Below are positions 4,117 through 50,867 of a stretch of 64,000 nucleotides of DNA, piece by piece (within the stretch, counting starts at the first letter, position 1; each line of letters starts with the position of its first letter). This DNA is from Balneola sp. (GTDB lineage Bacteria; Bacteroidota; Rhodothermia; Balneolales; Balneolaceae). Below the pieces are notes generated by a model that was given only the letters and a program-made list of their open reading frames with translations, did no database searches and had not been told where the DNA came from. Made by a program: the position numbers and the translations under genes. The stretch lies in contig JAEPPZ010000007.1 in NCBI GenBank assembly GCA_017640785.1, positions 62,001 to 126,000 of the forward strand. Direction: 5' to 3'.

Positions 4117-4274
4117 CCACAATTTTTTGAGCGGTATACGTAGATCATAGGATCGAGTCAGAAAAGTCACTTATACTCTTCGTGATTCAACTTCATTGTG
4201 TTGATTATTAACAAATGAACACAAAGAAGTGCTATATACAGATCGAGTTTTAAACCAAACTGGATATTTGTCTG

Positions 4275-17980: not shown

Positions 17981-18024
17981 ACCAACCCGTAGGGACAATT
18001 CATGAATTGTCCCTACGGGTTGGT
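17981..18024. repeat. Perfect 44-bp palindrome with GTAGGGA core
   Basis: Positions 17981-18002 and 18003-18024 are exact reverse complements with no loop. Each arm carries CCGTAGGGACAATT. It lies between the dipeptidase gene and dinB, both on the minus strand. A 36-bp palindrome at 50817-50852 shares the TGTAGGGA/CGTAGGGA core. Confidence 0.9.
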
Positions 18025-24685: not shown

Positions 24686-24985
24686 ATGCCTTACGAAATA
24701 TTAGTAGGATTGAATGTAACTGATGATGAACTATATCAGAAGTACAGGGATGAAATGACGCCGATACTAAAGACTTATGGAGGAGGCTTTAGATATGATT
24801 TCTTAATAGAAAAAGTATTAAAAACAGATTCTGAATCTAAAATAAACAGGGTTTTTGCCATTTATTTTGAGAGTGAAGAAGCAAAGAATGAATTTTTTAT
24901 GAACGAAAAATATCTTCAAATAAAGGAGAGATATTTTGCACCGTCAGTTTCAGCTACAACAACTATTGCTAAATATAACAGATAA
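24686..24985 (+). CDS. Small DUF1330-like (dimeric alpha/beta barrel) protein
   Basis: A 99-residue soluble protein: MPYEILVGLNVTDDELYQKYRDEMTPIL, a central GGGFRYDFLIEKV strand region and AIYFESEEAKNEFFMNEKY resemble the ferredoxin-like dimeric barrel of the DUF1330/antibiotic-biosynthesis-monooxygenase-like superfamily. Function is unknown in this family. An A/B REP pair follows immediately after the stop. Confidence 0.55.
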   Translation: MPYEILVGLNVTDDELYQKYRDEMTPILKTYGGGFRYDFLIEKVLKTDSESKINRVFAIYFESEEAKNEFFMNEKYLQIKERYFAPSVSATTTIAKYNR

Positions 24986-25002
24986 GATCAAACCTTCATC
25001 GT

Positions 25003-25101
25003 AGCTCAGTATTCCATCTGACGGATTTCCCGTCTGATGGAATACTGAGCTATCTAGTTAAATCAGATTTTCGGTCAGAAAGTTAATCTGTCAAACCGAA
25101 A
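25003..25101. repeat. REP cluster 1 (type A + type B)
   Basis: Type A palindrome at 25003-25051: arms extend from AGCTCAGTATTCCATC to its complement, with core TGACGG...CCGTCTGA and one central mismatch. Type B palindrome at 25069-25101: TTTCGGTCAG...CTGTC.AACCGAAA, slightly degenerate against the other B copies. It lies in the convergent gap between 24985 and 25127, about 0.8 kb from the RAYT gene. Confidence 0.88.
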
Positions 25102-25126
25102 ATCGGCAGGAAAAACTTAGAAGAGA

Positions 25127-25651
25127 TTATAACCAAGCCCAGTATACAATCAGTTTTTGATCTATGAGTATTACTTTGATTCTGCTTATTTCTTCTCCTT
25201 CGGAGTATATAAAATCATTATCCTCTGCAATTTTTATTATTTCCATTGTTTGGCTATCAAATGTATCAGTATGACTCTTTGCTGGTTTTTCTTTATCAAA
25301 CAATAAAGTTTTGAAGACAGGAAATGAATAATAGTAATTCTCTAAGTATTCGGTTCTAGAATGAACAAGCACAACTGAATCAGCAGGAAAGTTTATATAA
25401 TCTAGGTGCCAGTTTGCATGATCAACAGTAACTATCTCTCTTTTCCAAGTGAAGTCTTTAAAGTTATCATGGGTGATTTGAAGATTGCTCTCGTTATCTA
25501 TAGCTTCGAAAGCATACCGTGAATTTTCGGGTAAGTTTGTTTTATATTCAAAATAACTACCCCAAAAGAAATCACAGTAATAAATATATGTGGGTATAAT
25601 TATTGCAAAAACTAATATAGAAATGGCAAGTTTTTCTGTGAACTTTCTCAT
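25127..25651 (-). CDS. Hypothetical membrane-anchored protein
   Basis: Encodes 174 residues from the ATG at 25651; an earlier in-frame start would lie in non-coding REP-flanking sequence. One N-terminal membrane anchor (about residues 7-24, AISILVFAIIIPTYIYYC) is followed by a soluble, probably extracytoplasmic domain rich in Tyr, Asp and Glu. No family recognised. It is bracketed by REP clusters 1 and 2, and may be accessory. Confidence 0.5.
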   Translation of the reverse strand: MRKFTEKLAISILVFAIIIPTYIYYCDFFWGSYFEYKTNLPENSRYAFEAIDNESNLQITHDNFKDFTWKREIVTVDHANWHLDYINFPADSVVLVHSRTEYLENYYYSFPVFKTLLFDKEKPAKSHTDTFDSQTMEIIKIAEDNDFIYSEGEEISRIKVILIDQKLIVYWAWL

Positions 25652-25694
25652 CTCTAACAATATTAAAGAATAGGAATAATTCAAAGTTATGGCC

Positions 25695-25786
25695 ATTCCA
25701 TCTTACGGATTTCCCGTCTGATGGAATATTGAGTTAGCTAATTAAGCTAGTTCTTTCGGTCAGACAGGTAATCTGTCAGACCGAAA
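25695..25786. repeat. REP cluster 2 (type A + type B), downstream of RAYT
   Basis: Type A at 25695-25727 (ATTCCATCTTACGG...CCGTCTGATGGAAT) and type B at 25754-25786 (TTTCGGTCAGAC...GTCTGACCGAAA type ends, perfect arms around AGGTAA). The B copy lies inside the -1 frame extension of the RAYT gene. Confidence 0.9.
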
Positions 25787-25896
25787 TCAACATTATCTAA
25801 AAATTCATCAGAAATTGTCTGCTTGGAAAAGGCTCTAAACTTTTTATTATCAATAGGAAGTTTAAATAAATCTCTGGCTAATTCCTGATCAATAGC
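25747..25896 (-). other. C-terminal extension of the RAYT in the -1 frame
   Basis: After the RAYT residues FRKGK, the -1 frame continues for 49 codons (AIDQELARDLFKLPIDNKKF...) to a stop at 25747. This continuation resembles the usual RAYT C-terminus far better than the six-residue tail in the zero frame. The last codons (DFGLTDYLSDRKN) are read from a type B REP. Either a one-base loss has broken the gene or a -1 ribosomal shift on the AAAAGGAAAG run at about 25896-25906 restores it. Confidence 0.7.
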
Positions 25897-26387
25897 TTTC
25901 CTTTTCGAAACCCCGCATAATCCTGATACGAAGAAAACTCCCATTCTTCTAGTTCGGTCACCAGCTTGGCTCTAATAGGATTTTGATGGATGTACAAGAA
26001 ACAATTGACTCCATAATCATTATGAGTTTTTGATTCTTGAGCCAGTGATTTTGCCTTAGCTCTAGCACGGAATAAAGATCCCGATCGATTCAATTTTTTG
26101 TTTATCGCTTGCGTATAAGAACTTTGAATAATTCCAATACTCCTGTTTAGGGTGCCAACTTTATTCGATTCTTGAATGTTATCTGGAGAATTGTATTCTG
26201 GTTTTACTTGAAACAAAATGTGATAATGATTTGGCATTAAACACCATGCCAATATGTTAACGTGTGGAACAAGATGTTTTTCAACTTTCTTTAAAAAGTA
26301 CAGATAATTTTCTCGTTCAAAGAAAAGCTGTTCTCTGTTATTTCCTTGGTTATAAAGATGGTATACATGTTCTGGAATAAACTGCAT
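25878..26387 (-). CDS. REP-associated tyrosine transposase (RAYT, TnpA_REP, Y1 family)
   Basis: A 169-residue Y1-transposase-family protein that in characterised systems nicks and joins single-stranded REP sequences. Visible motifs: YNQGNNREQLFFE at 12-24, the HUH-type metal pair His54-Tyr-His56 in MPNHYHILFQ, catalytic-type Tyr91 in SSYTQAINKK, GSLFRARAKAK at 103-113 and LYIHQNPIRAKLV at 131-143. REP palindromes flank the gene on both sides, the standard RAYT context. The frame ends early (LLIRN) compared with the family; the expected C-terminus is in the -1 frame (25747-25896). Catalytic residues are all retained. Confidence 0.85.
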   Translation of the reverse strand: MQFIPEHVYHLYNQGNNREQLFFERENYLYFLKKVEKHLVPHVNILAWCLMPNHYHILFQVKPEYNSPDNIQESNKVGTLNRSIGIIQSSYTQAINKKLNRSGSLFRARAKAKSLAQESKTHNDYGVNCFLYIHQNPIRAKLVTELEEWEFSSYQDYAGFRKGKLLIRN

Positions 26388-26438
26388 CTGTCATTATAAT
26401 AAAAATGGGATTTAAACTATAAACATATACCGTATTAC

Positions 26439-26568
26439 GGTCAGACGGACTTAAGCCGTCAGACCTCAAAGCTTCCATTCCATCTGACGGATCACCCGTC
26501 TGATGGAATACTGAGTTAGCGAACCAAGCTAGTTCTTTCGGTCAGACAGGTAATCTGTCAGACCGAAA
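26439..26568. repeat. REP cluster 3 (types C, A and B), upstream of RAYT
   Basis: Type C at 26439-26465 (GGTCAGACGG...CCGTCAGACC), type A at 26477-26509 (ATTCCATCTGACGG...CCGTCTGATGGAAT) and type B at 26536-26568 (TTTCGGTCAG...CTGACCGAAA type). It occupies the gap between the RAYT start and the TRIC-like gene. The three palindromes share the GTCAGAC/GTCTGA core, so they are one family. Confidence 0.9.
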
Positions 26569-26570
26569 TC

Positions 26571-27176
26571 TTAAACCTTCATCTTAGGCAACGAAAGGTC
26601 GAGCTTAATGGCAGCAACGCGGATTCCAATAACTACTCCGGTAGTAATGACATAGTTCAAATTGGTTGCTATCTCAAAATAGATGCCGAGATAGAAAACC
26701 AATGCTCCCATCAAGCAAGCCGTGGCGTAGATCTCTTTTCTGAAAATAAGCGGAACTTCTCTACACAGAATATCTCGGATAATCCCACCAACCACTGCGG
26801 AAGTCATTCCCATGATTCCTGCCATAAACGGATTTAAACCAAACGCCAAAGCTTTTTCCATCCCACTGATCGTGAACAAGGCTATTCCAATGGTATCAAA
26901 TAAAAAGAGAGGTTTGTTGATGTCATCCAATCTGTTTCGAATTACATAAGTAAATGGAATTGCAGACAAAATCACAATGGGATAGGTCATATCGCCGATC
27001 CAGGTTATGGACTCGCTTCCAATCAGAATATCACGAACGGTTCCGCCACCAATAGCCGTCGCAAAACCGATCACCGCCGCTCCGAAAATATCCAGATCTT
27101 TCTTAGCCGCCATCCTGATACCGCTTATAGCAAATACAAAAGTCCCGATAAGATCAAGGATGGAGATAATGGTCAT
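26571..27176 (-). CDS. TRIC/UPF0126 family cation channel-like protein
   Basis: A 201-residue protein with seven predicted membrane helices in two repeats. LIGTFVFAISGIRMAAKKDLDIFGAAVIGFATAIGGGT near 9-46 and the matching second repeat IGIALFTISGMEKALAFGLNPFMAGIMGMTSAVVGGI near 95-132 carry the glycine-rich motifs of the bacterial TRIC-type (YadS/YicG, UPF0126) trimeric cation channels. It ends 3 bases after a type B REP. K+/Na+ conductance is known for prokaryotic TRIC homologues; physiological role here is unknown. Confidence 0.85.
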   Translation of the reverse strand: MTIISILDLIGTFVFAISGIRMAAKKDLDIFGAAVIGFATAIGGGTVRDILIGSESITWIGDMTYPIVILSAIPFTYVIRNRLDDINKPLFLFDTIGIALFTISGMEKALAFGLNPFMAGIMGMTSAVVGGIIRDILCREVPLIFRKEIYATACLMGALVFYLGIYFEIATNLNYVITTGVVIGIRVAAIKLDLSLPKMKV

Positions 27177-28391: not shown

Positions 28392-28484
28392 ATACTTTTT
28401 AAAAGATTTTTTTCTGTATTCTTATATCAGCAAGAAAGATACAAAGAATTAGATTGAGTATTGGGAGGGAAAAGAGGAGAAAGA

Positions 28485-28928
28485 ATGAATAATTATAGAG
28501 CTCTTATTTTATCATTTATGATAATATCATGTTCATCACCTGATCCTGAAAGGGTTAAAAATCAGGTTCTTTCTACCTCATGTAAAGAGGTTAAAGAGAT
28601 TGAGTTGATCTATTTTGCAGATAATCGTAATAAAGAAATTAAAATAATAGATGCCGATGAAGTTTGTGAAATTTTCACATTACTCAAGGAGAAGTCAAGT
28701 AAACCTCATTTAGAATACTTGCCTACGAATACGAATATTGATTCCTTCGTTATGTTGGTATTTGGGAATAAGAAGGAGGAAATTTTCCAGATTCAATCTG
28801 GAATCTTTAAATATAATAAAGGCTATATAATCCTAATGAACTCAGAAGTAGGAATTGTTGATATGAGATTGATTTCTGATTTAGAGTTTCCACTAAAAAT
28901 GCTTGAGATAATTGAGGAAAAAAGGTGA
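28485..28928 (+). CDS. Lipoprotein, tandem paralogue 1
   Basis: Encodes 147 residues from the ATG at 28485, preceded by GAGGAGAA. A short signal peptide ends in the lipobox MIISC (Cys16 region), so it is a lipoprotein. The body has no recognised family; Cys residues pair as STSCKEV and DEVCEI. It is followed after four bases by a paralogue with almost the same N-terminus and a related C-terminus (FVMLV, SGIF, GYIIL, VGIVDMR, FPLKMLEIIE). Function unknown. Confidence 0.7.
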   Translation: MNNYRALILSFMIISCSSPDPERVKNQVLSTSCKEVKEIELIYFADNRNKEIKIIDADEVCEIFTLLKEKSSKPHLEYLPTNTNIDSFVMLVFGNKKEEIFQIQSGIFKYNKGYIILMNSEVGIVDMRLISDLEFPLKMLEIIEEKR

Positions 28929-28932
28929 AAGA

Positions 28933-29379
28933 ATGAATAATTATAGAGCTCTTATTTTATCATTTATGATAATATCATGTTCATCACCTGATCCTGAAAG
29001 AATAAAAAATGAGGTTTTAAATACTACATGTTCAGATATAGAACAATTGATATTAACCGAAATTGATGATATTTCTCACCCTGAAATTAAAATTACAGAT
29101 GAAAATAGAGTTTGCGAATTTTTTACATTATTAAAAGAAAAATCAAAAAAAACACATTTGGAATTTATACCAACAAATACAAATATAGATTCTTTTGTAA
29201 TGCTAGTTTATACAAAGGAGAACGAATTAACCTTTAAGATATATTCAGGCATTTTTAATGATGAAAATGGTTATATAATTCTCACGAATACAAAAGTTGG
29301 AATTGTAGATATGAGATTTATTTCAGATGTAGAGTTTCCACTAAAAATGCTTGAGATAATTGAGGGAGAAAAGCTTTAA
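28933..29379 (+). CDS. Lipoprotein, tandem paralogue 2
   Basis: Encodes 148 residues from the ATG at 28933. The first 26 or so codons, including the lipobox, are identical at DNA level to paralogue 1 across about 70 bases, while the rest of the protein is clearly diverged, with shared islands HLE..PTNTNIDSFVMLV and VGIVDMR.ISD.EFPLKMLEIIE. It is probably translated with the upstream gene. The pattern indicates tandem duplication followed by conversion of the 5' end. Function unknown. Confidence 0.7.
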   Translation: MNNYRALILSFMIISCSSPDPERIKNEVLNTTCSDIEQLILTEIDDISHPEIKITDENRVCEFFTLLKEKSKKTHLEFIPTNTNIDSFVMLVYTKENELTFKIYSGIFNDENGYIILTNTKVGIVDMRFISDVEFPLKMLEIIEGEKL

Positions 29380-46722: not shown

Positions 46723-46784
46723 ATTTAATCAAGAAGCGGGAGCTGTAGTAGAGAATTCCTAAAATTAGGATTATCGCCATGGCC

Positions 46785-46830
46785 AACCCTCCTCTTGTTC
46801 TCCTCCCAAGAGGAGAACAAGAGGAGGGTT
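46785..46830. repeat. Perfect 21-bp-stem hairpin
   Basis: Positions 46785-46805 and 46810-46830 are exact reverse complements with a CCAA loop. The arm contains CCTCCTCTTGTTCTCCTC. There is no T-tract; it looks like a dispersed palindromic element rather than a terminator. Confidence 0.9.
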
Positions 46831-47029
46831 GATTCAGTATCTGAGCAGCGAGATTCTCGTCTACCGGAGGGGGTTGAGAGGAAGGTTGATACTCTCAGCA
46901 ATATTATATCTTGAACTAAGTCATTAGTAGAAATTTAAGTCCCCTCTTGAGAGGGGATTTAGGGGTGTGTTTAATTCGTTTGTCATCTTAAAGAGAGCCC
47001 ATCTGATGGGTTTTTAAGGCAGCCAAGAA

Positions 47030-48154: not shown

Positions 48155-48189
48155 ATTTTAAAAGCTATTTAATAGATTAAAGTAATTAC

Positions 48190-48264
48190 GGTCAGACGAA
48201 CTACAGCCGTCAGACCTTCACGCCATATTTAATTCCATCTGACAGATAACCCGTCTGATGGAAC
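48190..48264. repeat. REP cluster 4 (types C and A), away from the RAYT
   Basis: Type C at 48190-48216 (GGTCAGACG...CGTCAGACC) and type A at 48232-48264 (ATTCCATCTGACAG...CCGTCTGATGGAAC). Same palindromes as at the RAYT locus about 22 kb away, in the C-then-A order of cluster 3; no type B copy is seen. Confidence 0.85.
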
Positions 48265-50748: not shown

Positions 50749-50816
50749 TAAAGCCAATTTAATGTTTTAGACGAAGGAATTAAGAATTTCTTTCAGAAGA
50801 ATTTTTTCCGGAAAAC

Positions 50817-50852
50817 AACTGTAGGGATGTAATGCATTACATCCCTACAGTT
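50817..50852. repeat. Perfect 36-bp palindrome with GTAGGGA core
   Basis: Positions 50817-50834 and 50835-50852 are exact reverse complements with no loop; each arm reads AACTGTAGGGATGTAATG or its complement. It lies between glgP and the ECF sigma gene, both on the minus strand, and shares its core with the 44-bp palindrome at 17981-18024. Confidence 0.9.
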
Positions 50853-50867
50853 ATATTGTTCAAGAAC

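Follow-up and report, generated by a model that had tools for sequence, protein, structure and literature searches.

The closest described relatives of the system considered here are the REP-associated tyrosine transposases (RAYTs) of subclass 2.6, which corresponds to Bertels group 5 and occurs mostly in Bacteroidetes (Quentin et al., 2018; PMC6006769). RAYTs of this subclass have atypical, GTAG-less hairpins on their flanks, with further copies elsewhere in the genome, and their printed motifs are YIH[QN]NP, a C-terminal SS, NH[LIV]H and WQ, with a median length of 179 aa and a median HUH-to-Tyr distance of 82 (PMC6006769). A preliminary description of the locus treated below started from the premise that RAYTs and REPs belong mainly to the gamma-proteobacteria, which the distribution of subclass 2.6 makes outdated (PMC6006769).

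The locus lies in a stretch of 64,000 nucleotides from Balneola sp., which is referred to as the window. We read it, with a probability of roughly 0.85, as a REPtron, i.e. a single-copy domesticated RAYT that fits best into subclass 2.6 / group 5, together with its cognate REP family. Between a DUF1330 gene and a Gly_transporter-family gene there are seven hairpins in three clusters (25002-25101, 25695-25786 and 26438-26568), accompanied by the RAYT gene and a 189-aa passenger ORF (Table 1). The preliminary description had already recognised three REP clusters around the RAYT and a fixed order (A-B, A-B, C-A-B), and both hold, the clusters standing far above shuffled sequence: the A palindrome, with up to three mismatches, has eight matches in the window (both strands counted; four places) against none in 100 shuffles. 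One 96-nt block recurs as the three A-B units, with 93% identity between copies 2 and 3 and 64% between copies 1 and 2 in an ungapped alignment. Pfam and NCBIfam searches of the passenger ORF gave no match, and the ORF is retained in both congeners that have the RAYT at this locus. The REP-flanked segment 25000-25700 is 99-100% identical to genome G001, with surroundings at about 93%, which suggests that the passenger ORF may recently have been exchanged between G001 and the window's genome (G000); a REP-bounded form of this exchange was considered and rejected, as the identity boundaries match the REPs only roughly. Elsewhere, the window contains two tandem, similar, lipoprotein-like ORFs of 155 aa each (28461-29379) and a palindrome with a 22-bp stem, CAACCCTCCTCTTGTTCTCC...GGAGAACAAGAGGAGGGTTG, that is unrelated to A, B and C (46784-46831).

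Table 1. Features of the RAYT locus, and REPs without a RAYT, in the window.
Feature	Position	Strand	Remarks
DUF1330 gene	24686..24985	+	Bounds the locus
Left copy of 15-nt direct repeat	24990..25004	+	AAACCTTCATCGTAG; bounds whole element; single copy in G002 empty site
REP A1	25002..25052 (core 25014-25040)	+	23-bp extended stem, T.T mismatch, loop ATTTC
REP B1	25069..25101	-	Degenerate copy, inverted relative to A1
Passenger ORF, 189 aa	25127..25696	-	Between first two REP pairs
REP A2	25695..25727	+	One arm base substituted: CCATCTTACGG
REP B2	25754..25786	-	CGGTC.T.GACAG ATTAC CTGTC.T.GACCG on - strand
RAYT / TnpA-REP gene, 169 aa	25878..26387	-	PF01797, NF047646, AF2 model, PDB fold match
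REP C	26438..26466	-	AGGTC.T.GACGG CTTAAGT CCGTC.T.GACCG on - strand; about 50 nt upstream of RAYT start
REP A3	26477..26509	+	
REP B3	26536..26568	-	
Gly_transporter-family gene	26571..27176	-	Bounds the locus
Right copy of 15-nt direct repeat	26573..26587	+	AAACCTTCATCTTAG; 3' end of Gly_transporter-family gene
REP remnant	46996..47019	+	Counterpart of an A REP in G001; the part between the two TCTGA direct repeats is missing
Dispersed REP pair without RAYT	48189..48263		C-type 48189-48217 (-), A-type 48233-48263 (+); orthologous pair in G001

The earlier assignment of the gene to the Y1/RAYT family is supported by profile searches and by the predicted fold, which point to a Y1/HUH-family protein. 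The Pfam family PF01797 gives a partial match at 28 bits (cut-off 23), and the REP-associated tyrosine transposase profile NF047646 matches at E 2.9e-15, a match that falls short of that profile's own cut-off. An AF2 model built from 29 aligned sequences has a pLDDT of 87, and among PDB structures its top match is the complex of E. coli TnpA-REP and a REP hairpin (4er8; Z 15.0, rmsd 2.9, 139 residues), followed by the IS608 and ISDra2 transposases (Z 8.5-9.5; IS608 9.5). Thg1-like proteins also appear in the fold list (Z about 7), but these were not accepted as kin and their presence was taken to reflect a common ferredoxin-like arrangement. The HYH motif noted previously is present as the HUH metal motif NHYH (H54, H56), and H54, H56, Y132, N136 and P137 are invariant across 29 relatives. 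Tyr91, which had been proposed as catalytic, is likewise invariant in these relatives but is probably the wrong residue; the catalytic tyrosine is most likely Y132, within the Y motif YIHQNP, because it aligns with Y115 of E. coli TnpA-REP, for which Y115F is the catalytic mutant in use (PMC8266576). The protein ends in the motif SSY. Its host genome has a single close copy of the gene, the nearest paralogue being 38% identical, and the nearest named relative is Balneola sp. EhC07, whose RAYT is 92% identical. A domesticated, single-copy Y1/HUH endonuclease, with its activity predicted, is the best explanation of the gene.

The host genome carries other RAYTs as well. One paralogue (L019; G000:C17:19580-20059) is of the perfect-stem kind, with the motif YIHNNP, 38% identity and a terminal hairpin of 17 bp with a 3-nt loop, while two more (L018 and L021), with YIKNNP/YIKCNP, have flanking hairpins of the form GTAGGGGCG...CGCCCCTAC. 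Palindromes of the 'double-foot' type GTAGGG...CCCTAC, known from descriptions of RAYT subclass 2.4, occur in the window itself at 17981-18024 and 50815-50854. The number of RAYT/REP systems in this genome is at least three. In another RAYT relative, from Bacteroidetes bin_28 (L029), a similar hairpin is found inside the RAYT gene itself and upstream (4229-4263 and upstream), an arrangement already reported for subclass 2.4.

Read on the strand that carries the mismatch as T.T, which is the + strand for A and the - strand for B and C, the hairpins are CCATC.T.GACGG-ATNNC-CCGTC.T.GATGG for A (with the loop ATTTC in A1), CGGTC.T.GACAG-ATTAC-CTGTC.T.GACCG for B, and GGTC.T.GACGG-CTTAAGT-CCGTC.T.GACC for C. 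As palindromes they are imperfect: a single mismatch interrupts every stem at 5 bp from the loop, and moreover B1 is degenerate and A2 has a substituted arm base. Of the original observation, the palindrome clusters and the Y1 gene stand, while Tyr91 as the catalytic residue probably does not. Every arm of A, B and C has RTC-Y-GAY, TCTGA occurs as a direct repeat inside each unit, and the loops are of 5 nt in A and B and of 7-8 nt in C. The three types are related, as claimed, and amount rather to a single REP family that occurs in two orientations and with two loop classes. As A lies on the + strand and B and C on the - strand, A-B and C-A form inverted, BIME-like pairs. All tested hairpins fold better than each of 200 shuffles, at -8.9 to -24.3 kcal/mol in single-strand DNA folding. 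The central base is nearly always T.T (A.A on the other strand), with C.C/G.G in G024, in counts that are inflated by taking both strands and two arm lengths and that require near-complete arm pairing; Bacteroidales hairpins (L031) have central C.C and A.C, and that of Flavihumibacter (L032) is GTGTCTGACAT-GTG-GTGTCTGACAT. The conserved GTAG foot is absent from the hairpins of either strand, and there is no conserved 5' tetranucleotide of the GTAG or CGTC super-family, the REP flanks in Balneola being unconserved. The Gracilimonas genome G028 has a conserved ATGR/ATTG after the hairpin on the T.T strand.

Further copies, on which the preliminary description had staked the REP interpretation, are indeed present. 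There are about 20 REPs in the host genome (relaxed A pattern at 15 places, exact B/C pattern at 5, backwards control at 0), some of them single and others paired as C-A or A-C with about 13-30 nt between them. They are imperfect palindromes of 20-50 nt, multi-copy and mostly extragenic, as expected of REPs. Near A-type REPs at three places (L191, G000:C10:13835-23855; L166; L163) there are also several direct repeats of 50-315 nt, 87-93% alike and kilobases apart. In a family survey of 92 genomes, a RAYT match (E <= 1e-10) was found in 47 and the REP pattern in 26, with one control match overall; the genomes are related to each other, so these counts are non-independent. Where the RAYT is at least 60% identical, seven of the eight genomes carry the REP pattern, in 5 to 154 copies, and in the eighth (G007) the RAYTs are flanked by similarly built hairpins of other sequence, which the pattern missed. 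Two or more REP copies occur in 3 of the 45 genomes without a RAYT match. Two genomes without a close orthologue of the window's RAYT still have 12 REPs (G004) and 5 REPs (G002), which is what loss of the RAYT would leave.

The most amplified REPs are those of G028, with 154 copies. The 92 listed copies that were parsed comprise 51 A and 41 C, and 37 of the 43 pairs of neighbours less than 160 nt apart are inverted A/C pairs, with linkers of either 31-36 nt (21 pairs) or 64-82 nt (16 pairs). The remaining six are A..A pairs at 125-136 nt, the length expected with one degenerate C between. These arrays are organised like E. coli BIMEs. Related RAYTs at other places have lineage-specific hairpins around them, and in a tree of the relatives the RAYTs with mismatched stems are split at 100/99 from those with perfect 15-bp stems and 3-nt loops, with hairpin types labelled by eye and six rows left unlabelled. 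RAYT lineage and hairpin type match.

The palindromes might instead be ordinary transcription terminators or mRNA-stabilising gene-end hairpins, with the RAYT nearby only incidentally. Most dispersed copies do lie 3-50 nt beyond the 3' end of a gene (ORF-based, 12 places examined), and copies can exceed their flanks in conservation (100% versus 74-88% at L197, though that copy is in a reading frame). However, no consistent T-run follows the hairpins, and one REP copy lies inside the reading frame of deoB, presumably a phosphopentomutase gene (named from its C-terminus). Inverted A/C arrays with fixed linkers would not be expected of terminators, nor would hairpins that differ by lineage and surround related RAYTs elsewhere, and this explanation is improbable. 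The REPs may also serve as RNA hairpins in a secondary role.

Several sites indicate that REPs have been inserted at new places in the past, as judged by comparison of orthologous sequences. In deoB, the product of which matches Pfam Metalloenzyme, an A-type REP forms an in-frame insertion of 13 codons in G000, G001, G002 and G004 and of 11 codons in G006; it is absent in G003, G005 and G007, and no target duplication is visible at the insertion. At another place (L200), A stands beside C in G000 and G004 and C stands alone in G001 and G002, and G000, G004 and G006 have a B-type REP, about 18-22 nt beyond the stop of a gene, that the other compared genomes lack. Relative to G001, the window has lost the segment of one A REP between the TCTGA repeats (Table 1, REP remnant). 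Many Balneola REPs are common to several species, and since most are at orthologous places between species, present REP activity may be low.

The history of the RAYT locus itself has two readings. In G002 the flanking genes, which converge and are 4 nt apart, are joined with a single CAAACCTTCATTTTAGG, while in the window, G001 and G006 the element lies between two copies of CAAACCTTCATTTTAGG. In G004 the two copies enclose a single A-B pair and a small, unrelated ORF, and the more distant G005 and G007 are without the element at this locus. Either the insertion duplicated the site, or it is older and G002 has since lost the element. With at most one mismatch allowed, the window's direct repeat is 13 nt compared with a shuffle maximum of 12, and the case for duplication rests on the G002 empty site. 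At eight other RAYT loci (L027, L030, L104, L106, L108-L110, L115) direct repeats were no longer than in shuffles, and hence the 15-nt duplication is not a general RAYT signature. Movement of the whole REPtron (REP pairs, passenger ORF and RAYT) as one unit, with its contents exchanged in G004, is a doubtful proposition, based on the 15-17 nt direct duplication bounding the element and on the 4-nt gap between the converging genes in G002. If true, it would be rare direct evidence of tnpA-REP mobility, by a target-duplicating route; a 2021 paper states that there is no direct evidence of such mobility (PMC8266576).

A classical insertion sequence of the IS200/IS605 type, bounded by A on the left and B on the right, would share with the locus a related fold (IS608 Z 9.5), hairpins at both sides of the gene and the empty site in G002. 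It is nevertheless a very improbable description, since there is one gene copy to about 20 hairpins, the same A-B pair stands on both sides of a non-transposase ORF, TnpA-REP is the best fold match, well above IS608, and the full-length IS200-like matches in the genome are other loci. Nor does the locus look like a gene moving with two ends and without target duplication, as it has seven hairpin copies and a 15-nt direct duplication at its boundaries. IS200/IS605 elements are not known to produce 15-nt direct duplications.

Among 83 sequences with five-nt loops, collected with seeds that required only TCTGA...TCTGA without pairing of other positions, the stems show compensating changes at +3 (CG/TA), +4 (GC/AT), -4 (CG/GC) and -5 (CG/TA). 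Co-variation exceeds the independence expectation at +3 CG/TA, -4 CG/GC and +4 GC/AT, and the REP stem structure is under selection. Double-stranded operators (paired TCTGA boxes) of a regulator would account for the TCTGA direct repeat within each unit, but are highly unlikely, given that arm positions outside TCTGA change in compensating pairs, which double-strand binding does not need, and that most copies are at gene 3' ends, not promoters.

For the REPtron, a mechanism can be proposed in which a single-stranded REP, e.g. on the lagging-strand template, would fold into a hairpin with a pyrimidine mismatch (T.T, or C.C in some relatives) about 5 bp from a loop of 5-8 nt. The RAYT would bind this hairpin, the mismatch being the irregularity, as E. 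coli TnpA-REP reads in bulged REPs, and would cut beside it via Y132, after which the freed REP or REP pair would be joined to single-stranded DNA at a different site. All three types are probably substrates, because the core is common to all of them and because the relative with most copies has A and C by turns in inverted arrays.

We know of RAYT biochemistry only for groups 2 and 3. The Balneolota lineage adds to these a third case, in which the hairpins to be recognised follow clear rules and lack GTAG, and with a 154-copy relative in regular arrays and with filled and empty sites in congeners, it is useful for studying how RAYTs spread REPs. Inside a single protein family, REPs with mismatched stems and REPs with perfect stems segregate to the two sides of the tree, a parallel to the bulged/perfect split that distinguishes group 2 from group 3.

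Compared with subclass 2.6, the window's RAYT has the same YIHQNP, an SSY tail, a length of 169 aa (median 179; about 170-180) and an HUH-Tyr distance of 78 (median 82), and its hairpins likewise lack a GT[AG]G foot and have copies elsewhere in the genome. It fits most of the printed motifs but has NHYH (NHFH in relatives) rather than NH[LIV]H and F-R (or F-Q) rather than W-Q, and it comes from Balneolota. The hairpins of subclass 2.6 are 'atypical' and of weaker structure in the main text of its description, whereas in Balneola the stems are stable and their T.T mismatch is defined, and a relative has BIME arrays. With the E. coli REPtron (group 2 / subclass 2.2; 4er8) the locus shares the fold, inverted pairs with defined linkers, several REP classes (y, z1 and z2 there; A, B and C here) and a mismatch-interrupted stem, but it has no GTAG and one T.T mismatch instead of a two-base bulge, and the proteins are 18% identical over the structural alignment. 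Flavobacterium-type RAYTs (L034-L053) are related proteins (35-39% identity) with flanking hairpins, though these are mostly perfect 15-bp stems with 3-nt loops (AACCCTTTCAGAGTT-TTG-...) on the opposite side of the tree (100/99). The GTAG 'double-foot' REPs, with the subclass 2.4 RAYTs L018 and L021, represent another REPtron type in the same genome, whose hairpins (GTAGGGGCG...CGCCCCTAC) share no sequence with A, B or C. GTAG-less RAYTs of Bacteroidetes are already known, and the present additions are a rule for the hairpins, the BIME arrays, the division of RAYTs by type of hairpin and the filled and empty sites.
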